Positions 12,725 through 33,735 of a DNA stretch of 64,000 nucleotides are shown here, piece after piece. The notes under the pieces were generated by a model. That model did no database searches. It saw nothing but the letters and a program-made list of their open reading frames with translations, and was not told the DNA's origin. The stretch is taken from assembly GCA_019694675.1 (NCBI GenBank), contig JAIBBK010000012.1, positions 1 through 64,000 on the forward strand, given 5' to 3'. The stretch's first letter is position 1, and each line of letters begins with the position of its first letter. The stretch comes from Ignavibacteria bacterium (GTDB taxonomy: Bacteria; Bacteroidota; Ignavibacteria; Tepidaquicellales; Tepidaquicellaceae). The position numbers and the translations under genes are program-made.

Positions 12725-13051
12725 GGTTTTCGTTTAATTTGCCGACAAAGAAATTTAATGTTTCCTATGCAAAATATAGTAACCGATCGTTTCTTTCAAT
12801 TGAACGGCTGATGATAAATTGGAAATTTTGCCGAATAGTATCTGCCGCATGTACCTTCGTTATCGCCGCTCCGGGCAGGATTACTGAAGCCGGATCTGTA
12901 TGAAGTCGGCACAAAGCATACGCCCTGTGCATTCAGGCCGTTCATGCGGCTCTCAGTATGATCATTGAGTGTGAACGTCCCCGTAACGCAAGGATTCTAC
13001 CTATTGATTAATCAAAATAATAAGCATAAGTTGAATCATATAACCGCAAAA
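12725..13051. other. Divergent intergenic region upstream of the protease-lysin operon
   Basis: 327 bp between the divergent DUF2092 gene and the papain-like peptidase gene. No coding region is supported; a frame open from 12965 has only a TTG start and a non-conserved N-terminus. The left half is AT-rich. No perfect TAnnTTTG element was found. A 12-bp palindrome lies at 13004-13015. Confidence 0.5.
13004..13015. promoter_or_regulatory. Palindrome TTGATTAATCAA, possible operator
   Basis: A perfect 12-bp inverted repeat lies 37 nt ahead of the ATG at 13052, in the 5' region of the peptidase-caspase-lysin gene run. Its position fits a repressor or activator site. No regulator gene is adjacent, so the binding protein is unknown and the match could be chance in AT-rich DNA. 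Confidence 0.3.
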
Positions 13052-15226
13052 ATGGCTAAGAAAAAAGACACAAGAGAAAAGAGCGGGGGGAGATCTTCGA
13101 AGGACTCTTTTCAGTTCAATCTCAATGCGCGACCTGACACTGTTGATTTCCGCGACCTGATGTACATTCCAACCCTGCATGAAGTTCCGCCGGTGATAAC
13201 GCCGGAGGAATACATGCAAAGATCCGGAGGGAATGTCCTGGTTCTTGACCAGGGCAAGGAAGGCGCCTGCACGGGATATGCCCTTGCAACGGTGGCAAAC
13301 TTTCTCCTCCGTTCGAGGAAAGTAATGCCCGATACTGAGCCCGTCAGCCCGAAGATGATCTACCGGTTCGCAAGAAGATATGACGAATGGCCCGGCGAGA
13401 AGTATTCCGGCTCGAGTGCGCGCGGAGCAATGAAGGCGTGGCACAAGCACGGTGTGTGCTCTGACAAGCTTGACAAGTACTGGGACAATATAAAGTCTGC
13501 AGGAGGAAGGGAAGCTGATTACACGACGCTCATTGATGACTCCCGCTCCAGGCCGCTTGGAGCGTACTTCAGAGTTAACCACAAAGACCTTGTTGCAATG
13601 CACAGTGCAATGTCTGAAGTGGGGATACTCTTTGCAACTGCCAGCGTGCACCAGAACTGGCGCAGGCCGGTGAAGAAATATGCCGGGAGGTCAGCAGAAG
13701 GAAAGAATATTTACGAATGCCGGATAGAATTCAACCACAAGGACTTCACTGTCATAGGCGGACACGCATTCTGCATTGTGGCTTACGACCGGGAGGGATT
13801 CTGGGTGCAGAACTCGTGGGGAGAGAAGTGGGGAGACGGCGGCTTTGCAAAGCTCATGTATGACGACTGGCTCATAAACGGAACGGACGTATGGGTTGCT
13901 AGGCTGGGCGCGCCGGTAAGACTAAGTTCGGATGATTCAAGTACATCGGCATATCCTGTTGTTAAGGCTCTTAAGAACGAATCATCATTTTACCAGTTCC
14001 GCTCGCACATCATTAGCCTTGACAACGACGGAATGCTGAAGCAGGAGGGAACATACGGCCACGGGCGCAATTCACTCACGCACATCATCAACGGAATGGA
14101 TGTGACCATCAACACATGGAAGAAGAAATGGAAGAAGCGCAGAATACTGCTTTATGCACACGGCGGACTTGTGAACGAAGACTCCGTGATCCAGAGACTT
14201 TCCGATTACCGGGAAGTGCTTCTCAACAATGAGATTTTCCCCGTGTTCTTCATGTGGCATTCCGACTTCTGGACAACCGTAAAGAACATGCTTGACGATG
14301 CGCTGACAAAGAGGAAGTCGAAGGATATGCCCGGCGGGATAAGGGACTTTATGCTTGACAGGGCTGACGACTTCTTCGAATACATACTCAGAGAGCCCGG
14401 AAAACTTGTATGGAAGGAGATGAAGGAGAATGCAATTGGCGCGGCAGGCAAGGAATCAGGCGGAGCGACAAAGTATCTTGACCTGCTCATGGAGAAGATG
14501 CGGTCAGATCGCTCAAACAGTTACGAAATACATCTGATCGGTCACAGCGCAGGCAGTATTCTTCTGGGGCCTGTGGTCGGTTATCTGAAGAACCGCAATG
14601 TTCCGGTCACTTCCTGCACGCTTTGGGCGCCCGCATGCACGACCGAATTCTTTTTCGAACATTACCACAATGCCGTTGAGTCCGGATTCATACGTGACTT
14701 CAATATCTACACTTTGACAGACATTGCAGAACAAAACGACGAGTGTGCATCTATCTACAATAAGTCACTCCTTTACCTTGTCTCAAATTCATTTGAAGAA
14801 ATGCCGAGAGTGCCGGTCACACTGCCTTACGGAACGCCTCTGCTCGGCATGGAGAAATTTCTCAGCTCAGGGTTCTGGGGAAACAGGGAGAAAAGAAAGG
14901 TAAACAATGAACAGATGAGAGAGCAGTTTGAACTTTGCAGGAAATACGCACTTAAGCTGGAAAAGCTGTTCGCGGCGAAGAACATTGACTGGATAAAGTC
15001 ACCAAGCCAGAAAGAATATTCGAGCGCACAGACTCACGGCGCTTTTGATGATGACAAGAAATGCCTTGAGTCAACGATATCGTTCATACTAAAGAGCGGA
15101 AAAGGAAAGAAAGGATACGGAAGGATGCTTTCCCCGATAGTTCAGATGAGGCCGTCTGCGCTTTCGGTTGAAGAGCGCCTTGACAAGCTCAACAAGCGGC
15201 AGGAAATTCTTAATCTAAAACTCTAA
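13052..15226 (+). CDS. Papain-like C1 peptidase fused to an alpha/beta hydrolase
   Basis: 724 residues from ATG 13052. The N-terminal half (about 30-290) is a C1 peptidase: oxyanion Gln67 and nucleophile Cys73 in DQGKEGACTGYA, His238 in IGGHAFCIVAYD and Asn254 in VQNSWGEKWGDGGF. The C-terminal half (about 360-600) is alpha/beta-hydrolase-like: ILLYAHGGLVNED resembles an oxyanion-hole HGG strand, and Ser499 sits in the nucleophile elbow LIGHSAGS. A conserved acid and His are not obvious. There is no signal peptide; the N-terminus is Lys/Arg-rich and polar. It is the first gene of a run with two caspase-like genes (6 nt to the next). The protease-lipase pairing suggests a degradative effector. 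Substrates are unknown. Confidence 0.85.
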   Translation: MAKKKDTREKSGGRSSKDSFQFNLNARPDTVDFRDLMYIPTLHEVPPVITPEEYMQRSGGNVLVLDQGKEGACTGYALATVANFLLRSRKVMPDTEPVSPKMIYRFARRYDEWPGEKYSGSSARGAMKAWHKHGVCSDKLDKYWDNIKSAGGREADYTTLIDDSRSRPLGAYFRVNHKDLVAMHSAMSEVGILFATASVHQNWRRPVKKYAGRSAEGKNIYECRIEFNHKDFTVIGGHAFCIVAYDREGFWVQNSWGEKWGDGGFAKLMYDDWLINGTDVWVARLGAPVRLSSDDSSTSAYPVVKALKNESSFYQFRSHIISLDNDGMLKQEGTYGHGRNSLTHIINGMDVTINTWKKKWKKRRILLYAHGGLVNEDSVIQRLSDYREVLLNNEIFPVFFMWHSDFWTTVKNMLDDALTKRKSKDMPGGIRDFMLDRADDFFEYILREPGKLVWKEMKENAIGAAGKESGGATKYLDLLMEKMRSDRSNSYEIHLIGHSAGSILLGPVVGYLKNRNVPVTSCTLWAPACTTEFFFEHYHNAVESGFIRDFNIYTLTDIAEQNDECASIYNKSLLYLVSNSFEEMPRVPVTLPYGTPLLGMEKFLSSGFWGNREKRKVNNEQMREQFELCRKYALKLEKLFAAKNIDWIKSPSQKEYSSAQTHGAFDDDKKCLESTISFILKSGKGKKGYGRMLSPIVQMRPSALSVEERLDKLNKRQEILNLKL

Positions 15227-15232
15227 TTCATT

Positions 15233-16090
15233 ATGACAAAGAGACATTCGCTTTCAGTGGGCGTCAACAGAGTTGATCCCAAACAGTATGACGGCCAGTG
15301 GGACGGATTTCTTCCGTGCTGTGAAAAAGATGCACAGGATGTTGACAATCTTCTCAAAGCGGCCGGGTACGATAAGCGCACGCTTCTCAAAACTTCCAAA
15401 GCCACCCGAGCAAGTGTGCTGAAAGCTATAAAGAGCGCATCCAAAGCACTGAAGAAAGGCGACTTGTTTGTAATATATTATTCAGGTCACGGCGGACAGG
15501 TGGCAGATATAAACGGCGATGAGGAGGACGCAGATGATGAAACATGGTGCCTCTATGACGGCCAATTGATTGACGACGAGATCTATTACTCATTCTCTTC
15601 ATTCGCTGAAGGCGTGAGGATACTTATGATCTCGGACAGTTGCCACAGCGGCACGGTTGCCAAGGTTGCGATGCTGAACTCGAGCGAGACCGCTGGTCCC
15701 GTGAAGAAGAAACTTTACAAATTCATGCCCGAGGAAGTTGTAGGGAAGGCATATTTGAAGAAGCGTGAGCTTTATGACAAGATCCAGATGGATGATATCA
15801 TGAAAATATCTAACCCATCCAACAAGGATTACGCACACAACATCAGGGCTTCCGTCAAGCTGATCTCCGGCTGTCAGGATAATCAGTATTCGCAGGCAGG
15901 TGCGATCAACAGCGTATTCACCGCCATGATGTTCAGGGTCTGGAGAAACGGAATGTTCAACGGAAACTATAAGGCATTCCACAGGAAGATAGTTGACCTT
16001 ATGCCGCCGGATCAGACTCCGAATCTTTACGATGTCGGGGCAAAGGACCCTGACTTCAGCATGCAGAAGCCGTTTGCAAATTCAAAGTAA
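15233..16090 (+). CDS. Caspase-family (C14, metacaspase-like) peptidase
   Basis: 285 residues, a single caspase-like domain. The catalytic dyad is His86 in YYSGHGGQV and Cys137 in SDSCHSGTV. The acidic NGDEEDADDETWCLYDG segment between them is typical of metacaspase S1 pockets, which cleave after Arg/Lys. The first 27 residues (MTKRHSLSVGVNRVDPK) begin directly with the first caspase strand, so there is no prodomain or signal peptide. It starts 6 nt after the papain-hydrolase gene and is a close paralogue of the N-terminal domain of the next gene: both place His and Cys at identical positions. Activity appears intact. Its target may be a neighbour's product, which is inference. Confidence 0.93.
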   Translation: MTKRHSLSVGVNRVDPKQYDGQWDGFLPCCEKDAQDVDNLLKAAGYDKRTLLKTSKATRASVLKAIKSASKALKKGDLFVIYYSGHGGQVADINGDEEDADDETWCLYDGQLIDDEIYYSFSSFAEGVRILMISDSCHSGTVAKVAMLNSSETAGPVKKKLYKFMPEEVVGKAYLKKRELYDKIQMDDIMKISNPSNKDYAHNIRASVKLISGCQDNQYSQAGAINSVFTAMMFRVWRNGMFNGNYKAFHRKIVDLMPPDQTPNLYDVGAKDPDFSMQKPFANSK

Positions 16091-16123: not shown

Positions 16124-17851
16124 ATGGGAAAGAAATTTTCACTTAGCGTGGGTCTGAATGCAGTTGACCCGAAAGCATATGACGGAGAATGGGACGGAGC
16201 CCTCGCATGCTGTGAGAAGGACGCGAAGGACATAAACAGGATCGCAGTGTCGCTCGGATACGACAAGACCGAGATGCTTCTGACAAAAAGCGCCACAAGA
16301 AAGAATGTGCTTGCTCTGCTCGGCGCATTTGCCAAAGAGCTTTCGGCGGGAGATTATCTGCTTCTCTATTACTCAGGACACGGAGGGCAGGTTACCGATG
16401 TGAACGGTGACGAAGAAGACGGCGCGGACGAGACCTGGTGCCTCTATGACGGCGAACTGCTTGACGACGAGATCTATGCCTGCCTGTCCGAATTCAAGCC
16501 CGGGGTGAGGGTCTATGTGCTGTCGGATTCGTGCCACAGCGGGACTGTCACAAAAGCAGCCGTGAGAAAATCATTAAAGGATTATCATGAAAGAAGGAAT
16601 CTCATAAAGAGTATGCCTGCGACAGTGGGAATTGAGTCTGAAAGAAGGAGGAAGAAATTCTACAGGAAGATACAAACGGACCTTCTGGCAAAGTCGAAGA
16701 AAGGCAAGGGCACTGTGGCTGAGGGTGCAGTGCTTGATGTTGGAAATTATATGTGGGCCGTGAAAGCTTCCGTCAAACTGCTTTCGGGATGTCAGGACAA
16801 TCAGGAATCGGGCGCATCACCCGATCCGTTTCACAACAGTGATTTCACGGACAGACTGCTCATCACCTGGAACGGCGGAAAGTTCAACAACAATTATGAG
16901 AAGTTTCACAGGAAGATCATCTCACAGATGCCGTCTGATCAGACGCCGAACGTATTTACTCTCGGCCCTGAAGATCCCGAATTCGACAGGCAGTCGCCGT
17001 TCACAAATTCCGAAGCAGGCATCTATTCTGAAGGAAGCACAATCCTGAAGTTTGACGGTGTTAAGCTCATCAAGATCGGCTCGAAAGGTGAGCTTGTAAA
17101 AGTATGGCAGGCATTTCTTAACAAACAGGGATACAACACAGGAACCCCGGACGGAGTGTTTGGCAACAAGACCTTCAAAGCAACCATTCAGTTTCAGAAA
17201 GACAACGGGCTCAAAGCTGACGGCATCGCGGGAGTGAACACTTTCAAAGCCGCGGCAGGTCTCGGATTCAAGTTTCCCGGAGACACAACCTCGCCGCCGT
17301 CTGCCGGAGGAGGCAAGGGGATCTCGAAAGAACAGCTTGCATACATAATGCGAGGAGCAAAGAGCACTGACATTGAAACATTTACGGAGCCGCTGAACAA
17401 GGTCATGGAAAAATATGAGATCAACACTCCCCTAAGGATCGCTCACTTCCTTGCACAGGTTGGCCATGAAAGCGGCAGTCTCAGGTACAAGGAGGAGATT
17501 GCCAGCGGCGCGGCCTACGAAGGAAGGGCCGACCTTGGGAACATTCATCCCGGTGACGGCAGGAAGTTCAAAGGCCACGGGCTTATACAGCTGACAGGCA
17601 GGCATAACCATACTCAATATGCAAACTACGTCGGCGATCCTGACCTTATCATTCATCCGGAAAGGATCGGCCGGGAGCCGCTTCACAGCGCAGGTGCGGC
17701 GGGCTGGTACTGGCTGACCCGAAAGATCAATCCCCTTGCCGATCAGGACAACCTGATCGCAGTCACGAAGAAGGTCAACGGCGGTACCAACGGACTTGAA
17801 GACAGGCGTGGATATCTTGCAAGGGCAAAGAAGATACTTGGACTGAGCTGA
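16124..17851 (+). CDS. Caspase-like peptidase fused to peptidoglycan-binding and GH19 lysin domains
   Basis: 575 residues with three modules. Residues 1-295 are a caspase domain with His86 (YYSGHGGQV) and Cys137 (SDSCHSGTV). Residues ~317-380 are a PG_binding_1 domain (VWQAFLNKQGYNTGTPDGVFG). A Gly/Pro/Ser linker lies near 385-399. Residues ~400-575 are a glycoside hydrolase family 19 domain of the phage-endolysin type, with catalytic Glu449 in HFLAQVGHESGS, a second Glu at 457/458 and the GHGLIQLTGRHN motif. GH19 enzymes cleave chitin or peptidoglycan glycan strands; the adjoining PG-binding domain favours peptidoglycan. No signal peptide is seen. It lies 33 nt after the single-domain caspase. 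Lysin activity gated by caspase processing is an attractive but untested idea. Confidence 0.92.
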   Translation: MGKKFSLSVGLNAVDPKAYDGEWDGALACCEKDAKDINRIAVSLGYDKTEMLLTKSATRKNVLALLGAFAKELSAGDYLLLYYSGHGGQVTDVNGDEEDGADETWCLYDGELLDDEIYACLSEFKPGVRVYVLSDSCHSGTVTKAAVRKSLKDYHERRNLIKSMPATVGIESERRRKKFYRKIQTDLLAKSKKGKGTVAEGAVLDVGNYMWAVKASVKLLSGCQDNQESGASPDPFHNSDFTDRLLITWNGGKFNNNYEKFHRKIISQMPSDQTPNVFTLGPEDPEFDRQSPFTNSEAGIYSEGSTILKFDGVKLIKIGSKGELVKVWQAFLNKQGYNTGTPDGVFGNKTFKATIQFQKDNGLKADGIAGVNTFKAAAGLGFKFPGDTTSPPSAGGGKGISKEQLAYIMRGAKSTDIETFTEPLNKVMEKYEINTPLRIAHFLAQVGHESGSLRYKEEIASGAAYEGRADLGNIHPGDGRKFKGHGLIQLTGRHNHTQYANYVGDPDLIIHPERIGREPLHSAGAAGWYWLTRKINPLADQDNLIAVTKKVNGGTNGLEDRRGYLARAKKILGLS

Positions 17852-20786: not shown

Positions 20787-23690
20787 TCACTGTACAAGAA
20801 TATTCTTCACAGGTTCAAGCGTTTCAGTCTTGCTCTTGCCTTTTAGCAAGGAAGACACATCCCGGAGTTCAGTTTCGTAAAGCGATTCCGAGGTTCTGAT
20901 CTCTTCTTCGAGATCAAATATCGTCTTCTTCATCAACTTCATTTTGTGATCATCTCTCAGTGATAGAAACACCGCGAGGCACAATGCAGACTTCTTTTGC
21001 TCGCCTGCAAGTCTGAAAGCGCGTGCAAGGCCGACGATGTTGCACAAATGAAAGAACTCTATCCCGCTTTCCAGGGAGAGCCTTATCGAAGCCGAGAAGT
21101 TACCCGCTGATGCCGAGTATTTCTCCATCATCAGTTGAGCAGTGCCAAGATAATATCTTGCGGCGATAATATGAGCATTGAATCCGTATTCGGATGAAAT
21201 TCTGATGCCGTCGTTCAGATAAGACAGCGCCTTATCATAAATGCCCTGATAAGTGTAAATGCTGCCGAGGTTGATCTTGTTCGCAGCTTCGAGATACCGT
21301 GAACCCACAATTTCGCATATATCGAGACTTTCAATAATGAACTTTACAGCCTCATCATACTTTCCTTCATTCATATAAATGGAACTCAGGCTTGTGAGCA
21401 CGAGCGCCACTCTGTAAGTCTCGCCGTGCTTTCTGTAAATGTCAAGCGCTTCAAGCTTGTACTTCAGCGCACTTTCCCTGTCTCCCATAGCACCGAGCGT
21501 GAATGAAAGGTTGTATCTCGTATTCGCAACCTCTACGTCAGAACCCATTTCTTCAAACAGCCTGATCGCTTCTTTGAAATTCACTTCCGCTTCCTTTACT
21601 GATCCCGGACTCATGTTAAGGACGACTCCCTTCATGTTCAGTGTCCTGGCCATTCCCTCCCTGTTGTTTGAATTGCGAAAAAAGTCATAGCTTACATTGG
21701 CCTTTTTTTCCGCTTCATGAACATTTCCCGATTCATAATCAATAAGGGCAAGTGTGTAGAAGAGGTTTCCTGTCTCATCATCGCTGAGTTCACTTCTCTT
21801 TTCAAGCAATTGATTGCAGATTTCTCTGGCTTCGAAGTGCCTTCCTTTTAACTGCCACAGATCTGTCATGCTTTGCATGATCCTGCATCCAGCGCGGAGA
21901 TCTTCACTGCATGCAAACTTAAGAGCAAGCCTGATATTCTCCCTGTCGGCATCCGCAATCGTCATCCACTCATTCTGAGTCATGCCGTTGTTCCTCCATT
22001 CCCATTGCATTGAAAGACGCTCAAAGTACGTCAGGTGCTTTCTTCTCAAATCCTCGCCGGCCTTTGACACCATTCCTGCATACTGTCTTATAGTCTCAAG
22101 CATGTAGAATCTCTTCCCTGCGGGTGTCTCCTTTGTATTGATAAGGGACTTGTCAACGAGGTTTGTCATAAGGTCGAGCACTTCATATTCATCAAGCTCC
22201 TCACCTGAACATATTGCTTCCGCTGCTTCAAGTGTCCATCCTCCCGAAAAGACCGAAAGCCTTGCGAAGAGCAGTTTCTCCTTCTCATCGAGAAGATCAT
22301 AGCTCCAGTCTATCATCGCCCTCAGAGTCTGCTGTCTCGGCAGAGCGGTCCTGTTTCCTCCCGTGAGAAGCTTGAACCTGTCATCAAGCTTCTTCAGTAT
22401 CATTTCAGGCGATAGAACTTTAAGTCTCACTGCCGCAAGTTCAATTGCAAGCGGAATTCCGTCAAGCTTTATGCAGATATTCTTTATGTGTTCCGCGTTG
22501 CTGTTGTTGATCCTGAATGAAGAGTTGACCGCAAGTGCTCTCTCAATGAACAGCCTTACCGACTCGAATTTCGCAAGGTCTTCCGGTTCATATGCAATGC
22601 CGGGCTCGGGTTGTTGAAGAGAGCTAAGCACGAAGACCGTCTCACCGCTGCATTGAAGCGCTTCTCTGCTTGTTGCAATGATCTTAACACTTGCCGATCT
22701 CCGCAGGATCTTCTCGGCGGCTTCCGAAACATCTTTGATGATGTGCTCACAGTTGTCAATTACGAGAAGAGCATTCTTATCTTTGAGATATTCCAGCACT
22801 GCATCTTCCGCGTTCATTACCTGCATTTCGGTTATCCCGAGCACGCCCGCAATATCATCAAAGAGCAGTGCAGGATCGTTGAGAGATGCAAGTTCTATCA
22901 GCCACACTCCGTTCGGAAATGAATCTATCGAGTCTGCGGCCAACTGAAGTGCGATCCTCGACTTTCCGGTACCGCCCGGGCCAATGACTGTGACCAGTCT
23001 CTCCGCTGACAGGGTCTCTTTCAGATCAATCAGTTCACCGGTCCTTCCTACAAAGCTTGTAAGCTGTACAGGTAGGTTGTTCGGCGTTTCGTCAAGCGTG
23101 AAAATTGGAGGGAAGTCTGATCTGAGGAAATCAGTTTCTGCCTGAAAAAGGACCACGGGTTCAATAAGGTCTTTAAGTCTCCGCTTGCCGAAACTGCGCA
23201 GCCTTATGAGTTTTCCTTCTTTGCTTTTGTCATGGAACGGGAATGAAGTGTACTCTTCATTGTATTCAGGATAGGACCTGACGGCATCTTCAGAGACAAG
23301 GATCTGTCCTCCATGCGCGGCAGACATAACTCTGTTAGTTCTTGCAAGCGTGAGATATCCCATGTAGTCATGCCCGTTCCATTCTGCGTATCCTGAATGT
23401 ATTCCCATTCTCACTTTCATCCTTGCGCCGCCCCAGTCTTCAGCTTCAAGCCTGATCTGAGCGGCTACTGCCGCATTCAGTGCGTCTTCAATCCTGCCGA
23501 ACGAACTGCAGAATGCATCGCCTATGGTCTTGAATGTATGGCCGCCGTTGTCTTTCAGAGCCTGTTCAAGTATTGAATGATGCTTTGAGATCAACTCGCT
23601 GTGACTTTCCCTGAAGGTCTGAGCCAGCATTGTACTGCCTTCAATATCTGTGAACAGGAATGTTACATTGCCTGAAGGAGGATTTTTCAT
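20787..23690 (-). CDS. Class III cyclase domain - STAND-type ATPase - TPR signalling protein (copy 1)
   Basis: 967 residues. Residues ~8-180 are a class III adenylate/guanylate cyclase domain with metal-binding Asp15 (FTDIEGST) and Asp58 (TIGDAFCSSF). The AfsR/MalT-like ATPase region has Walker A GPGGTGKS at 237-244, a Walker B-type LLVIDNCEH, and the downstream GIPLAIELAAVRLK and AMIDWSYDLLDEKEK motifs of NB-ARC/STAND proteins. The last ~350 residues are TPR repeats. There is no DNA-binding domain, unlike AfsR or MalT. It probably senses something through the TPRs and switches the ATPase. Cyclase activity is uncertain because the substrate-specifying and transition-state residues were not verified. 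A tandem paralogue of the same length lies directly upstream. Confidence 0.88.
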   Translation of the reverse strand: MKNPPSGNVTFLFTDIEGSTMLAQTFRESHSELISKHHSILEQALKDNGGHTFKTIGDAFCSSFGRIEDALNAAVAAQIRLEAEDWGGARMKVRMGIHSGYAEWNGHDYMGYLTLARTNRVMSAAHGGQILVSEDAVRSYPEYNEEYTSFPFHDKSKEGKLIRLRSFGKRRLKDLIEPVVLFQAETDFLRSDFPPIFTLDETPNNLPVQLTSFVGRTGELIDLKETLSAERLVTVIGPGGTGKSRIALQLAADSIDSFPNGVWLIELASLNDPALLFDDIAGVLGITEMQVMNAEDAVLEYLKDKNALLVIDNCEHIIKDVSEAAEKILRRSASVKIIATSREALQCSGETVFVLSSLQQPEPGIAYEPEDLAKFESVRLFIERALAVNSSFRINNSNAEHIKNICIKLDGIPLAIELAAVRLKVLSPEMILKKLDDRFKLLTGGNRTALPRQQTLRAMIDWSYDLLDEKEKLLFARLSVFSGGWTLEAAEAICSGEELDEYEVLDLMTNLVDKSLINTKETPAGKRFYMLETIRQYAGMVSKAGEDLRRKHLTYFERLSMQWEWRNNGMTQNEWMTIADADRENIRLALKFACSEDLRAGCRIMQSMTDLWQLKGRHFEAREICNQLLEKRSELSDDETGNLFYTLALIDYESGNVHEAEKKANVSYDFFRNSNNREGMARTLNMKGVVLNMSPGSVKEAEVNFKEAIRLFEEMGSDVEVANTRYNLSFTLGAMGDRESALKYKLEALDIYRKHGETYRVALVLTSLSSIYMNEGKYDEAVKFIIESLDICEIVGSRYLEAANKINLGSIYTYQGIYDKALSYLNDGIRISSEYGFNAHIIAARYYLGTAQLMMEKYSASAGNFSASIRLSLESGIEFFHLCNIVGLARAFRLAGEQKKSALCLAVFLSLRDDHKMKLMKKTIFDLEEEIRTSESLYETELRDVSSLLKGKSKTETLEPVKNILVQ

Positions 23691-23753
23691 GCAGGCATAG
23701 TATTTCCCGCAGGCATTTGATTCAATGCCATTTGGAATGATCTGTGGCTGTGA

Positions 23754-26657
23754 TCAGATACTTCCATCACTGGCGGAGCATAACTCCTGAATTAGCCCGG
23801 GCTTTACCTTCTGCATGGAATGCTGAATAGCGGATTCTGCCTCACTTTCTCCCATAGCTTTGTATAATTCTGACTTCAGTTCACTGAGTTTCAGGTTTGC
23901 AAGTTCAAACATATTGCTGCCTGCTGTATTCGCTTCATAAAGAGCAGCGCCAATCAGTTTACACGAAAGTTGATGATCGCCTCTCTTGCACGCAATATCT
24001 GCAAGTCCGCAAAGAGCCGTAACCGCCGTCTTGGTTTCAGTATTTCCCTTTTCACCCGCAAAAACTCTTGCGTAATGCAACTGTGCTTTCTCCTGATCAC
24101 CGGTCTTCTGATACAGATCCCCGAGACATACATTGACATGGTCTTCTCCAAGCTTAAATCCGGTCTCTTCCGCAAGATTCAGGCACTCGTTGTACTTTTC
24201 GAGCGCTGATTCAATTCTGTTTTGCCTGAAGTCAATCTGCCCCATGTTAACAAGCGAAATGCACAGTCCGTGTTTGTTCCCTGTCTTCAGATCCAGCTCC
24301 ATGCTCTTTCCAAAGAATTCAAACGCTTTCTGCTGTTCACCTTTCCATTCGGCAACTTCGGCAATGTTGTTATACAGTATTCCGAGGTAGTTGTCATCTT
24401 TCAATTCTTCGGCTATTGACAAAGCTTCCTCATAATACTTCATTGCTTCATCGTAATTGCCAAGTTGATTGCAAAGCAATCCAAGTGAATTCAGCGATGA
24501 ACATATACTGATAGGCGATCCGAATTTCCTTTTCATCTCAAGGCTTTGTTCCAGGAACTTCCGGCTGTCGTCGAAATTCCCCAGATCATAGTGCGTCAGC
24601 CCAACCAGATTCAGAGCCTGTGAGAGCCCTGCGGGAATGTCGAGTGTTGTGTAAATCTCTATTGCCTCATTCAGAAAGCCCATTGCCTTTTCATTCGCTC
24701 CGAGTATTGAATGCATTATTCCTGCAAGCTTAAGTGAGTCTGCAAGTGTTTCCGGTTTGAGAACATCCCTTCCTGCAAGAAGCCTTTCGAGCCATGTTGA
24801 AGCTTCAAGCGTATGGCCGCGTATTTCCCAGAACTTGCCGAGTGAACAGGCAAGCCTGCTGCCTTCTTCGAACATGCTGTTGTCAGCAGACCACTTGAGC
24901 GCGGCTTGTATGTTCGGGTATTCTGCTTCGATCGCCGCGAGTCTTTCTCCTGACCTTGGCCCAGTGTAATCACCGATGCCGTCTTCACAGAATTTCAGAA
25001 AATGTTCCAGATGGCTTCGGAAGATGATCTTATCTTCTTCCGCTTCACTGAGCTTCTCTCTTCCGTACTGCCTGATCGTCTCCAGCATGCCGAACCTCTG
25101 TGCCGATTCAGAGAAAGACAAAATGGATTTTTCCGTGAGAGTCTCACAGATGTTGAGCACGTCTTCGGAACTGATGATCCCGTCCGCACAGACCGCTTCG
25201 GCAACTTCAAGCTTCCATCCGCCGTAAAAAACCGAAAGTCTTCTCCACATAATTTTTTCCTCTTCATTCAGGAGGTCATGACTCCAGTCAATCATTGCGC
25301 GGAGGGTCTTTTGTCTCGGCAGTGCGGTCCTGTTCCCGCCCTTTAGAAGGCTGAACCTGTCCTCAAGCCGCTTTCTTGTTTCTGCCAGTGAAAGAAGCTT
25401 GGTCCTCGCGGCGGCAAGCTCAATAGCCAGGGGTATTCCGTCAAGCTGAAAGCAGATCTCCGCAAGGTCTCCGGCATTGCTTTCTGTCAGTCTGAATGCC
25501 GGATTGACAGCCAGGGCACGCTCAATGAATAGTCTGACTGCTTCATAACCTGCAAGTTCCACAGGTGATGGCCTTTCACCCGGGCCGGGGTGGCGGAGCG
25601 AAGAAACTTTGAAAACAAATTCGCCATAACATCTGAGAGACTCCCGGCTGGTTCCGAGTATCTTCACCTTTTCTGATCCTTTCAGGATCGCCTCAACTGC
25701 AGTGGAAACTGTTTCAATAATATGCTCGCAGTTGTCGAAGATGATCAGCGCTTCCTTGTCCTTCAGGAACTTCAGCAGTGCATCTGCCGGGGAGTTACCG
25801 TAATCATCGGACACCTTAAGGGTTGAAAGCACGGTTTCCCCGAATAGCGTCGCGTCGGAGACAGGAGCCAGGTCAACGAGCCATATGCCGTTTGGAAAAT
25901 TATCTATCAATTCCGCAGCCGCCTGCAGAGCCAGTCGTGTCTTTCCCGTACCTCCCGGACCGAGAAGAGTTACGAGCCTTTTCTCGCCAATCAACTGCTT
26001 CAGTTCCTCAAGTTCTTTTGATCTTCCTATGAAGCTTGTGAGCTGTATCGGCAGGTTGTTCGGATTCAGGTCCAGCGTCTTCAGAGGAGGGAACTCTTCT
26101 TCCATGCCATCGGCAGTTATCTGAAAAAGTGTGACCGGCTCCACAAGGTCCTTAAGCCTGCACACACCAAGCCGCCTGAAGCCTGTTCCCTGACAGGATA
26201 CGTCTCTCTCATCAGCAGACGGGGCCATGCCTTCTTCATCATATCCGAGTGCATCAGCAGAGATAACCACCTGTCCTCCGTTTGCCGCAGACATGATCCT
26301 GTTCGTCCTTGCGAGTGTGAGATATCCCATATAGTCACTTCCGTTCCATTCTGCCAAACCCGAGTGTATTCCCATTCTCACTTTCAGTCTTGCCGGGCCC
26401 CAGTCATACTTGTGCAACTCCCTCTGTGCCCGCACGGCTGCATTTACCGCACCAGCGAGAGTGCTGAATGCGGAACAGAATGCATCGCCGACAATTTTGA
26501 AAACGTGGCCGCCGGCCGATTCAAATGACCTTTTGAGTATTGTATTATGTACATCGAGCAGGTCGTGAAGCTTCTCGCTATGCTCCTGTGCAAGCTTTGT
26601 ACTGCCTTCTATATCTGTGAACAGGAAATATACATTTCCGCCGGAAGGTATTGTCAT
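23754..26657 (-). CDS. Class III cyclase domain - STAND-type ATPase - TPR signalling protein (copy 2)
   Basis: 967 residues, collinear with its downstream neighbour. Cyclase domain with Asp15 (FTDIEGST) and Asp58 (KIVGDAFCSAF); ATPase with Walker A GPGGTGKT at 233-240, Walker B-like ALIIFDNCEH and GIPLAIELAAARTK; C-terminal TPRs with clear units (LNLVGLTHYDLGNFDDSRKF, LNSLGLLCNQLGNYDEAMKY). The two copies are well conserved in the cyclase and ATPase parts and diverge strongly in the TPR half, which points to different partners or stimuli. The gap between them is 63 nt, so they may be co-transcribed from upstream of 26657. The cyclase domain's product is not predictable by eye. Confidence 0.88.
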   Translation of the reverse strand: MTIPSGGNVYFLFTDIEGSTKLAQEHSEKLHDLLDVHNTILKRSFESAGGHVFKIVGDAFCSAFSTLAGAVNAAVRAQRELHKYDWGPARLKVRMGIHSGLAEWNGSDYMGYLTLARTNRIMSAANGGQVVISADALGYDEEGMAPSADERDVSCQGTGFRRLGVCRLKDLVEPVTLFQITADGMEEEFPPLKTLDLNPNNLPIQLTSFIGRSKELEELKQLIGEKRLVTLLGPGGTGKTRLALQAAAELIDNFPNGIWLVDLAPVSDATLFGETVLSTLKVSDDYGNSPADALLKFLKDKEALIIFDNCEHIIETVSTAVEAILKGSEKVKILGTSRESLRCYGEFVFKVSSLRHPGPGERPSPVELAGYEAVRLFIERALAVNPAFRLTESNAGDLAEICFQLDGIPLAIELAAARTKLLSLAETRKRLEDRFSLLKGGNRTALPRQKTLRAMIDWSHDLLNEEEKIMWRRLSVFYGGWKLEVAEAVCADGIISSEDVLNICETLTEKSILSFSESAQRFGMLETIRQYGREKLSEAEEDKIIFRSHLEHFLKFCEDGIGDYTGPRSGERLAAIEAEYPNIQAALKWSADNSMFEEGSRLACSLGKFWEIRGHTLEASTWLERLLAGRDVLKPETLADSLKLAGIMHSILGANEKAMGFLNEAIEIYTTLDIPAGLSQALNLVGLTHYDLGNFDDSRKFLEQSLEMKRKFGSPISICSSLNSLGLLCNQLGNYDEAMKYYEEALSIAEELKDDNYLGILYNNIAEVAEWKGEQQKAFEFFGKSMELDLKTGNKHGLCISLVNMGQIDFRQNRIESALEKYNECLNLAEETGFKLGEDHVNVCLGDLYQKTGDQEKAQLHYARVFAGEKGNTETKTAVTALCGLADIACKRGDHQLSCKLIGAALYEANTAGSNMFELANLKLSELKSELYKAMGESEAESAIQHSMQKVKPGLIQELCSASDGSI

Positions 26658-26938
26658 TCAGATATGTAACATGAATGAACCTACTGATATTCTTTGCAGA
26701 TGTGAATTCATTGAATTCTTTAATACATAACCAATCATGAAAAATTGTGATCCGCGCTTATTCGCTTCTGATTCATTGCCGCGCGACTCAATAGAGTAAC
26801 AGCCAAACATATTAATACTTAAGTGAATAAGCAATTAACGATTGCAATAAGAGGAGGCTTCAGTTGCCATACTGTTTTAGACTTTTTGCAAAGCGCCCGC
26901 TATGGAGATGTGCTTCATTGACGTGAAGAGCACCTTAG

Positions 26939-27741
26939 CCACAAATACACGAATAACATCATTCGCTGTATTGACCTCACCGGAATGCACGACAGAATTT
27001 CTTCATTCGTGCATTCGTGGCTAATGTTTTTCCGGTGCAGATGAACGGCCATCTCAGTTGTTGCATTGCAGTAACGATTAACTCATAGCTGCTATTCATC
27101 TGATTGAAGAGCTTTGAGCTACGAATACGCGAATAACAACATTCGCTGTATTGACCTCACCGGGATGCACGACAGAACTTATTCATTCGTGCATTCGTGG
27201 CTAATGCTTTTCCGGGGCAGATGAACGGCCATCGGAGTTATTGCATTGCAGTAACGATTAACTCATAGCTGCTATTCATCTGATTGAAGAGCTTTGAGCC
27301 ACGAATACACGAATAACGTCATTCGCTGTATTGACTTCATCCGAATGCACGAATCAACTCTTTCATTCGTGCATTCGTGGCTAATGCTTTTCCGGGGCAG
27401 ATGAACGGCCATCGGAGTTATTGCATTGCAGTTACGATTAACTCATAGCTGCTAATTATTCGATTGAAGAGCTTTGAGACACGAATACACGAATAACATC
27501 ATTCGCTGTATTGACCTCACCGGAATGCACGAATCAACTCTTTCATTTGTGAATTCGTGGCTAATGTTTTTCCGGTGCAGATGAACGGCCATCGCAGTTT
27601 TTGCATTGCAGTTACGATTAACTCATAGCTGCTAATTATTCGATTGAAGAGCTTTGAGACACGAATACACGAATAACATCATTCGCTGTATTGACTTCAT
27701 CCGAATGCACGAATCAACTCTTTCATCCGTGAATTCGTGGC
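26939..27741 (+). repeat. Array 1 of a 180-bp intergenic tandem repeat (about 4.5 units)
   Basis: Cores beginning CCACGAATACACGAATAAC (or close variants) start at 26939, 27119, 27299, 27479 and 27659, an exact 180-bp period. Each core is ~82 bp and ends in the inverted arm TTCATTCGTGCATTCGTGG. A ~98-bp linker (containing CCGGTGCAGATGAACGGCCAT and TTGCATTGCAGT) joins the cores. In several units an inner perfect hairpin forms, for example 27342-27354 with 27365-27377. No open frame of note runs through it. A second array in the same orientation lies at 32770-33735. The non-coding stretch 26658-26938 before the array shows nothing else recognisable. Confidence 0.95.
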
Positions 27742-27794
27742 GAAAGGATTATAACACCCGAATATTCAGAATCAGCAGCAGGCTGAAAGGGTCA

Positions 27795-28490
27795 TCAGGG
27801 AGAACTGTCGGATGGTTTTGATTTCAGTTTCATTCCGCTCTTGGATATTTGCCTGAAGTCGATAGCCGAGAATTGCTTCTCTCCCCTTTTTGATAAGTAC
27901 GGCTTGAAGCACGATAAGGCTCCATCAAGATATACAGGTTTCATCTTGGCATATCCCGATTCTGCATTATACAATTCAAGATTTATCACCCAGGTTGTCA
28001 GAATGTTTGTGTATTGGAAAACGAATGTTTCAAAATTCGATTTAGAAAGAATTTCAGGATTCAGAATGCCGGCATCAACCATCCTCTCCGTTCGTTTCTG
28101 AATATTCCTGATGTTCCTCTTATAGCTTTCACCGATGTGCGTATGTAGTTCTGAATTGGATTGCGTGACCATTGCCAGATAGGCAATACCGCAACGAAAA
28201 TCGTATTGAACGTCCATTATGGCGCTGAGGCTTTTCGCAAGATCGGCAAGCTCTAAAGAATTCTCCAAACTGATTTCTGCGGCAAGCTGAGCAAATTTCT
28301 CCTCATATGCGTGCAGTATTGCGAGGAACAGGGTTTCCTTAGTGGAAAAGTGATTTGTAATCCGGCTCTTTGTAAGGCCCATTTCTGCGGCTATCTTCTC
28401 AAGAGTAATATTCAATCCCTTTTCATTGAAGATCTGCCGTGCCCTGTCAACTATTGTGTCCCTTGTGCTCTGTCCCTTCTTTTTGTTCAT
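27795..28490 (-). CDS. TetR-family transcriptional regulator
   Basis: 231 residues from ATG 28490. The N-terminal helix-turn-helix (TRDTIVDRARQIFNEKG, ITLEKIAAEMGLTKSRITNHFSTKETLF) is a clear TetR domain. The C-terminal ~160 residues are the helical ligand-binding/dimerisation domain, ending in a Lys/Ser-rich tail. It is divergent from two short-chain dehydrogenases; the 153-bp gap contains paired promoter elements around the palindrome TCTTTGCAAAGA, so it likely represses both itself and the dehydrogenase cluster. The -7 element sits only ~7 nt before the ATG, so the mRNA may be leaderless. The inducer is unknown, presumably related to the cluster's substrate. Confidence 0.92.
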   Translation of the reverse strand: MNKKKGQSTRDTIVDRARQIFNEKGLNITLEKIAAEMGLTKSRITNHFSTKETLFLAILHAYEEKFAQLAAEISLENSLELADLAKSLSAIMDVQYDFRCGIAYLAMVTQSNSELHTHIGESYKRNIRNIQKRTERMVDAGILNPEILSKSNFETFVFQYTNILTTWVINLELYNAESGYAKMKPVYLDGALSCFKPYLSKRGEKQFSAIDFRQISKSGMKLKSKPSDSSP

Positions 28491-32630: not shown

Positions 32631-32769
32631 TCCCTTCTGCGGCATTGAGGATCTAATCCTTCCTAAAACCTTTTTGAGCATGCATGCCCTTGGCAATCCC
32701 CAATGCGATTACTGCATTTGAATAACGATCAGCTCATAGCTACTTTTCATCTGTACTAAGAGCCTTTTG

Positions 32770-33735
32770 CCACGAATACACGAATAATATGATTCACTGT
32801 GTTGACTTCACAGAATACACGACTGAACTTATTCATTCGTGCATTCGTGGCTAATGTTTTCCGGTGCAGATGAACGGCCAACTCAGTTTTTGGATTGCGG
32901 TAACGATTAACTCAAAGCGGCTATTCATTTGATTGAAGAACTTTGAGCCACGAATACGCGAATAACAACATTCGCTGTATTGACCTCACCGGAATGCACG
33001 ACAGAACATATTCATTCGTGCATTCGTGGCTAATGTTTTTCCGGTGCAGATGAATGGCCATTGCAGTCTTTGCATTGCAGTAAAGATTAACTCATTACTG
33101 CTAAGTATTCGATTGAAGAGCTTTGAGACACGAATACACGAATAACGTCATTCGCTGTATTGACCTCATCAGAATGCACGACAGAACATATTCATTCGGG
33201 CATTCGTGGCTAATGCCTTTCCGGTGCAGTTGAACGGCCATCGCAGTTATTGCATTGCAGTAACGATTAACTCATAGCTGCTATTCATTTGATTGAAGAG
33301 CTTTGAGCCACGAATACACGAATAACAACATTCGCTGTATTGACCTCATCAGAATGCACGACAGAACTTATTCATTTGTGCATTCGTGGCTAATGTTTTC
33401 CGGTGCAGATGAACGGCCATCGCAGTTTTTGCATTGCAGTAACGATTAACTCATAGCTGCTCATTCGATTGAAGAGCTTTGAGCCACGAATACACGAATA
33501 ACGTCATGCGCTGTATTGACTTCATCCGAATGCACGAATCATCTCTTTCATTCGTGCATTCGTGGCCAATGCTTTTCCGATGCAGATGAACGGCCAACCC
33601 AGTTTTTGCATTGCAGTAACGATTAGCTCATAGCTGCTAATTATTCGATTGAAGAGCTTTGAGCCACGAATACACGAATAACGTCATGCGCTGTATTGAC
33701 CTCATCAGAATGCACGACAGAACATATTCATTCGT
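32770..33735 (+). repeat. Array 2 of the 180-bp intergenic tandem repeat (about 5.4 units)
   Basis: Cores start at 32770, 32948, 33128, 33308, 33484 and 33664, periods of 178, 180, 180, 176 and 180 bp, in the same orientation as array 1. The last core is cut inside its right inverted arm (TTCATTCGTCAGAAATA), marking the array edge. Linkers carry the same CCGGTGCAGATGAACGGCC and TTGCATTGCAGT segments. No coding frame is supported inside. Confidence 0.95.

Follow-up and report, generated by a model that had tools for sequence, protein, structure and literature searches.

Tandem class III cyclase-STAND-TPR proteins of an Ignavibacteria bacterium and coupled switching of base-selecting residues across their family

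Among class III cyclases of known structure, Ma1120 and Rv1900c are the closest by sequence to the two proteins described here and, by structure, rank among the best matches (Z 23.3 and 22.2, respectively); their solved domains stand alone. Rv0386 of Mycobacterium tuberculosis is a multi-domain class III cyclase with a regulatory C-terminal part, in which the ATPase region is STAND-like and the base-selecting pair is Q-N; proteins of this type combine a cyclase homology domain (CHD) with a LuxR HTH. Rv0386 has been cited for an alternative substrate-binding mechanism (PMC3466318). AfsR and MalT also have an NB-ARC/STAND module followed by TPR repeats, and their output is DNA binding and transcription. 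In Pycsar systems, the cyclase PycC has a class III fold and makes a signalling cyclic mononucleotide (PMC11224242), the product being of the pyrimidine type. The cyclase-STAND-TPR architecture is itself already known: proteins of Chloroflexota, Armatimonadota, Eremiobacterota, Betaproteobacteria and Verrucomicrobiota have the same head order as the pair below.

The window, by which we mean the whole 64,000-nucleotide stretch of Ignavibacteria DNA analysed, contains two adjacent ORFs of this architecture, P_A and P_B. Both begin with ATG and they are separated by 63 bp, P_A being the first (upstream) gene. By BLASTP the two proteins are 43% identical across 841 aa. Their equal length is a coincidence, because the alignment of P_A with P_B needs gaps and lengths vary in the family, where the 59 full-length members listed span 946–1119 aa. 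Guanylate_cyc (41.2 bits in P_A and 33.1 in P_B; cut-off 21.9), NB-ARC (27.4 and 29.4 bits; cut-off 23.5) and TPR families of Pfam match both proteins. No HTH, BTAD-type or other DNA-binding family occurs among their Pfam matches at E<=0.01 (for P_A, the best 25 of 27). An earlier note, made from the DNA alone, had described tandem 967-aa cyclase-STAND-TPR paralogues without a DNA-binding domain, and the ORFs, Pfam and BLASTP bear this out.

Table 1. Coordinates of the two genes and their domains in the window
Feature	Position	Strand	Evidence
P_A, class III cyclase-STAND-TPR protein, 967 aa	23754..26657	-	ORF, Pfam, motifs, model
P_A cyclase homology domain, residues 1-182	26112..26657	-	Pfam Guanylate_cyc, invariant columns, model, Ma1120 fold
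P_A NB-ARC/STAND NTPase and winged helix, residues ~205-545	25023..26045	-	Pfam NB-ARC, invariant columns, Apaf-1/NRC folds
P_A TPR superhelix, residues ~546-961, putative sensor	23775..25022	-	Pfam TPR, model, Rap/NprR and MalT III folds
P_B, class III cyclase-STAND-TPR protein, 967 aa, second gene	20787..23690	-	ORF, Pfam, motifs
P_B cyclase homology domain, residues 1-185; D15, K54, D58, D108, A116, R120	23136..23690	-	Pfam, motifs
P_B NB-ARC/STAND NTPase and winged helix, residues ~209-549	22044..23066	-	Pfam, motifs
P_B TPR region, residues ~550-960; 17% identity to P_A TPR	20811..22043	-	Pfam, family alignment

An AlphaFold2 model of P_A, built from a 39-row alignment, has a mean pLDDT of 86.6, and Foldseek ranks the STAND-TPR protein PH0952 (6mfv_A) first among its matches. 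The cyclase part superposes on Ma1120 (5d15_A) with an rmsd of 1.8 over 160 residues; together with the Pfam scores, this identifies a class III cyclase fold. The middle part resembles Apaf-1 (Z 23.1) and the NB-ARC modules of plant NRC1 and NRC2 (Z 22.5 and 22.4). TPR-like helices run through to the C-terminus, and here the matches are to the Rap/NprR peptide sensors (Z 23–29) and MalT domain III (Z 25.7). Structural matches to TPR are common, so the likeness to peptide sensors is only a lead.

Against the described systems, P_A and P_B share the K-D base-selecting pair, metal-binding Asp residues and catalytic Arg with Ma1120/Rv1900c-type cyclases, and with Ma1120 also an Ala at the position of the usual Asn; unlike those stand-alone domains, their heads carry an insertion before the Arg helix and are joined to a STAND-TPR receptor. 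AfsR was matched by sequence and MalT domain III by fold, but in place of their DNA-binding output the window pair has a cyclase head. With PycC the pair has the class III fold in common, although the match found by PADLOC is short and partial, and the K-D pair argues for ATP rather than a pyrimidine substrate.

We consider it rather probable that both proteins are class III nucleotidyl cyclases that are soluble, gated by a ligand and organised in the manner of NLR/STAND switches. From their domains we infer a course of gating, oligomerisation and catalysis in which the TPR superhelix would sense a cognate ligand, the NB-ARC ATPase would exchange nucleotide and oligomerise, and oligomerisation would bring two cyclase heads together as a head-to-tail dimer that forms the active site. 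The cyclic nucleotide released would act in trans, most likely on CRP-type receptors. For the window pair, with its adenylate-type K-D residues, this product would be cAMP; in the wider tandem Ignavibacteria family, the same chassis carries other co-selected base-recognition pairs, so that different receptors probably work with different nucleotides. A cyclic nucleotide as output, raised in the earlier note as a possibility, is plausible.

The two paralogues differ chiefly in the putative sensor. In the family alignment, P_A and P_B have identities of 0.56 in the cyclase, 0.53 in the NTPase, 0.57 in the ARC/winged helix and 0.17 in the TPR, and over 1711 family pairs the corresponding medians are 0.55, 0.53, 0.58 and 0.26. 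In the closest within-genus pairs, conservation of the sensor equals that of the head: identities in the same order are 0.91, 0.94, 0.97 and 0.94 for G001_C387/G016_C203, and 0.80, 0.83, 0.84 and 0.83 for G011_C20/G021_C10. Across the eight nearest cross-genome pairs, dN/dS is 0.03–0.14 in the NTPase and 0.05–0.25 in the TPR (seven of the eight with finite dS), the latter modestly above the former and far below 1; between P_A and P_B themselves, synonymous sites of the TPR are saturated. We saw no sign of recurrent positive selection on the TPR at the resolution of these eight pairs. Sensors thus differ between paralogues yet are maintained within a lineage by purifying selection, as the low dN/dS of the TPR and its head-like conservation in those closest pairs indicate. 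The concentration of divergence in the TPR half that the earlier note had described therefore holds, with heads about 55% identical; its idea of a diversifying sensor holds only between paralogues, and the head-to-TPR comparison of dN/dS that it had proposed gives no support to diversification as an ongoing process.

These data also bear on a simpler possibility, that the proteins are ordinary nutrient or quorum sensors like MalT, AfsR or Rap, with a TPR that merely tolerates substitution and a base pair that signifies nothing specific. The nearest folds of the TPR are those of Rap/NprR and MalT III, dN/dS is low everywhere, and divergence of the TPR between paralogues is expected with age. 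We regard this account as possible but doubtful: it leaves unexplained why residues 54 and 108 switch together, as described below, and it does not conflict with what the cyclase-receptor explanation that we favour says of the sensor half.

Both proteins retain the metal-binding D15 and D58, the catalytic R120, the Walker A lysine and the Walker B aspartate, as the earlier note had stated for the cyclase Asp residues and ATPase motifs. In P_A the other cyclase residues are K54 and D108, which select the base, and Ala116 at the Asn position; the NTPase motifs are Walker A K239, Walker B D308-N-C-E311, S337-R338 and G407-I-P409. Of the STAND residues, K243 of Walker A, D312 of Walker B, the sensor Arg R342 and P413 of the GxP motif (P_B numbering) are each present in all 59 full-length family members, which come from ten genomes. 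In the same set, the first and the second metal Asp are each kept in 58 and the Arg in 59. The usual transition-state Asn, four residues before the Arg, occurs in none: the position holds Ala in 50 (P_A and P_B included), Ser in eight and His in one. A one-residue insertion follows the Gly that precedes this position in 58 of the 59 and sits before the α-helix carrying the Arg; since residues 112–124 form one helix in the P_A model, Ala116 occupies the place of the Asn. Ma1120, which also has Ala there, is an active adenylyl cyclase, and introducing Asn costs it activity (PMC4215837), so a missing Asn is no proof of a dead enzyme. We did not find the combination of catalytic loss with uniform divergence that the earlier note had set against its own reading, though the transition-state Asn is replaced by Ala, as in the active Ma1120. 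Catalysis is not kept in every member, since in one protein (G011 C18:65177-68041, L072) both metal Asp residues are Glu, in a head that is itself K-D; this is a candidate natural pseudo-cyclase, judged by its residues, and a useful control.

ATP-specific class III cyclases carry a K-D pair, and GTP-specific ones have E with varied partners, for example C, S, T or H (PMC4215837). P_A and P_B both have K54 and D108, the adenylyl type, so cAMP would be their expected product. To place the pair in context, we compared 127 distinct heads, left after removal of 16 duplicates (repeated relatives among 84 heads of a wide sample). The wide sample comprised the best 80 matches to a nine-protein query and may favour K-D, because five of the nine query proteins are K-D. 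Heads of canonical length (n=64), typical of the widespread relatives, mostly have Asn and K-D (57 each), whereas heads with the insertion (n=63) have Asn in none and K-D in 30; K-D is the commoner in canonical heads by Fisher's test (p=4e-7, a value that ignores kinship). In the insertion heads the metal Asp residues are kept in 62 of 63 at either position and the Arg in all 63. The 33 non-K-D insertion heads, every one of which retains both metal Asp residues and the Arg, include E-R (5), E-K (4) and K-N (3), with other pairs, D-R and Q-N among them, once or twice; Q-N is found in two family members. Besides columns 54 and 108, only positions 27 and 169 pass a screen for differences between K-D and other insertion heads. 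The nine full-length members of the genome under study comprise five K-D heads and one each of E-K (on C22), Q-N (C35), R-N (C49) and D-R (C53:76051).

The two base-selecting positions change together. By MI-APC, none of the 13,861 column pairs among insertion heads (79 rows including the 16 duplicates, weighted) ranks above columns 54 and 108; among canonical heads, in which both barely vary, the two rank 61st of 13,695. On a tree of the 63 distinct insertion heads built without the two columns, a model of dependent evolution is preferred over independence with LR 45.7, whereas 150 control column pairs have a median LR of 3.6 and reach 25.9 at most; an earlier run on 79 tips that included the 16 duplicates gave LR 38.4. 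An independent-pairs comparison on the cyclase tree yielded only 2–3 supported pairs. On an NTPase+ARC tree, five changes are required to account for the insertion state: a single group (support 0.81) holds 58 of the heads that have it, and five from other records fall outside this group. Taken together, the sequences indicate that base recognition in the insertion subfamily has been re-set as a pair, and repeatedly, while the phosphate and metal chemistry was conserved. We read this as coupled re-setting rather than decay, because decay should strike the metal ligands too, and it did so in one member. This coupled switching across the family is the new part of our findings.

It remains to weigh a reading in which the cyclase domain binds NTP and metal without forming product, serving the STAND switch as a module for dimerisation or regulation, with base recognition having drifted after catalysis was lost. 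Replacement of the Asn in all 63 insertion heads together with the residue inserted beside it, the wide variation of the base-selecting residues and the loss of both metal Asp residues in G011_C18_65177 point this way, and inactive cNMP cyclase domains have been described in other conflict systems (PMC7159879). Yet both metal Asp residues and the Arg persist in all 33 non-K-D insertion heads, positions 54 and 108 are coupled and do not drift freely, and Ma1120 is active with an Ala in place of the Asn (PMC4215837); we hold this reading to be unlikely. For active cyclases, we also count the fact that nine of the 11 Guanylate_cyc domains in the genome belong to this family and that five cNMP_binding domains are present; to the missing Asn with its adjoining insertion and the Glu substitutions in the G011 protein, on the other side, is added that no CRP-type gene is seen beside the pair. 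Across genomes, cNMP_binding domains average 3.7 in nine family-bearing genomes versus 1.95 in 20 others (p=0.008, a comparison that ignores genome size and phylogeny).

The genome under study (3.70 Mb, 104 contigs, 92% complete) has, besides its nine full-length members, a single fragmentary copy at the end of a contig. Proteins matching over both the cyclase and the STAND part occur in ten of 59 genomes searched, this one included (G000, with G001, G009, G011, G012, G016, G021, G022, G024 and G037), and nine of the ten fall among the 29 genomes of its taxonomic family; the named contigs bearing these genes belong to MAGs of Ignavibacteria or Bacteroidetes. The closest relative that this search gave for P_A and P_B has 46% identity. 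Another member lies within 1.5 kb of 23 of 61 members, on the same strand in 22 of these. A scan of named genomes found at least 559 relatives, the matches listed including Ignavibacteria, Chloroflexi, Armatimonadetes, Eremiobacterota, Betaproteobacteria, Verrucomicrobia and others, so the architecture is common. A literature search, with most subscription papers outside its reach, found no paper on it in Ignavibacteria. A STAND-TPR relative without the cyclase (G000 C17, L031:8098-10695) has another N-terminal domain, DUF4062-like by eye, and similar proteins are present in G009 and G011.

Cyclase segments and whole genes appear to be mobile. In same-genome paralogues of the relatives, the best 60-codon windows lie inside or just past the cyclase, with DNA identities of 0.86–0.95 versus gene means of 0.60–0.72 (in the first eight pairs listed), clearly indicating local exchange of cyclase segments between paralogues. 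G016_C74 and G000_C53_79218 are 0.88 identical in NTPase and TPR and 0.73 in the cyclase, as expected if one cyclase was replaced. Within the window pair, recent gene conversion was considered and set aside as a hint: four-fold sites are identical at 27/51 in the cyclase versus 41/133 elsewhere (p=0.0066), this being the best of 36 G000 pairs tested, and averaged over all same-genome pairs the head has nearly no excess (0.376 in the cyclase versus 0.365 in the TPR). Some family members have probably crossed genera, because in five cross-genus pairs the synonymous difference (0.39–0.54) lies below that of leuS (0.69–0.79) and gyrB (0.70–0.82) in the same genomes; in two within-genus pairs it is close to leuS. 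These two genes formed the background, recA comparisons involving G011 or G021 (five of seven) being left out. A candidate for horizontal transfer is G000 C53:79218-82388 (L024:11219-14389), which is 85% identical to G016 C74 (L081) across genera, with leuS at 69%.

The window neighbours of the pair encode YCF48-like/dockerin, TetR, DUF1003, kinase-like and caspase-like proteins. A YCF48-like/dockerin gene lies downstream; upstream of P_A, 1.1 kb separate it from the TetR regulator, and this gap holds a tandem repeat of 180 bp (26937–27744, 4.5 copies, 92% match). A second array lies at 32769–33735, and repeat matches number 51 on eight contigs of the genome. A long hairpin is predicted when one repeat unit is folded (z -3.2), and Rfam gave no match over 26500–27900. 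Elsewhere in the window, two adjacent caspase-like (Peptidase_C14) genes occupy 15233–16090 and 16124–17851, the second fused to peptidoglycan-binding and GH19 chitinase/lysozyme-like domains (GH19 just under cut-off). Directly before them, 12965–15226 encodes a 753-aa protein with a weak papain-like (C1) match and a C-terminal half that is α/β hydrolase-like by eye.

PADLOC recognised no system among ten proteins scanned, nine of them from the window and the pair included; on the pair it gave generic TPR and short, partial PycC and mad8 matches only. Partner genes were sought in 49 stretches from this genome and its relatives, together with 30 kb of the window; 310 ORFs were clustered, 68 of them being set aside as family matches, and no conserved partner emerged. 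Judged by eye, a cluster of 17 ORFs (15 loci) reflects the shared secretion and sorting domains of surface proteins, and one of five ORFs (five loci) resembles an ABC-transporter half; neither was accepted as a specific partner. The absence of a conserved partner fits a diffusible product without demonstrating one. The immune role entertained in the earlier note thus finds no support, and the association with defence islands that it had suggested looking for was not seen among the ten proteins scanned. An immune mechanism as in Pycsar, in which the TPR would detect something made by an invader and the cyclase would produce an alarm nucleotide triggering an effector, is improbable: an NLR-like switch fold, tandem arrays, a patchy distribution, transfer between genera and the weak PycC match on P_A (3.7e-5, residues 12–66) would suit it, but no PycTM/PycTIR-like effector or defence system was recognised among the neighbours, no neighbour is conserved at the 49 loci, and the TPR is under purifying selection between orthologue-like pairs.

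Returning to the ligand-gated cyclases that we favour, the array of such NLR-like receptors in Ignavibacteria has jointly and repeatedly changed its base-recognition pair with the catalytic core kept. We therefore put forward, tentatively, that one cell may make several cyclic mononucleotides, each with a private sensor, and that exchange of cyclase segments between paralogues may rewire sensor to product. What deserves to be followed is that base recognition has been re-set, in a coupled manner, among the tandem receptors of one family. Provided that the product depends on the paired switches, these receptors would be a natural series for the base-selection code of class III cyclases, since their E-R, E-K and D-R pairs belong neither to the ATP set (K-D) nor to the GTP set (E with residues such as C, S, T or H) given in PMC4215837; they would then also show a bacterium multiplying cyclic-nucleotide channels behind an NLR-like receptor. 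Should the heads instead be dead, they would illustrate clearly how a cyclase domain can be retained as the nucleotide-binding part of a switch.
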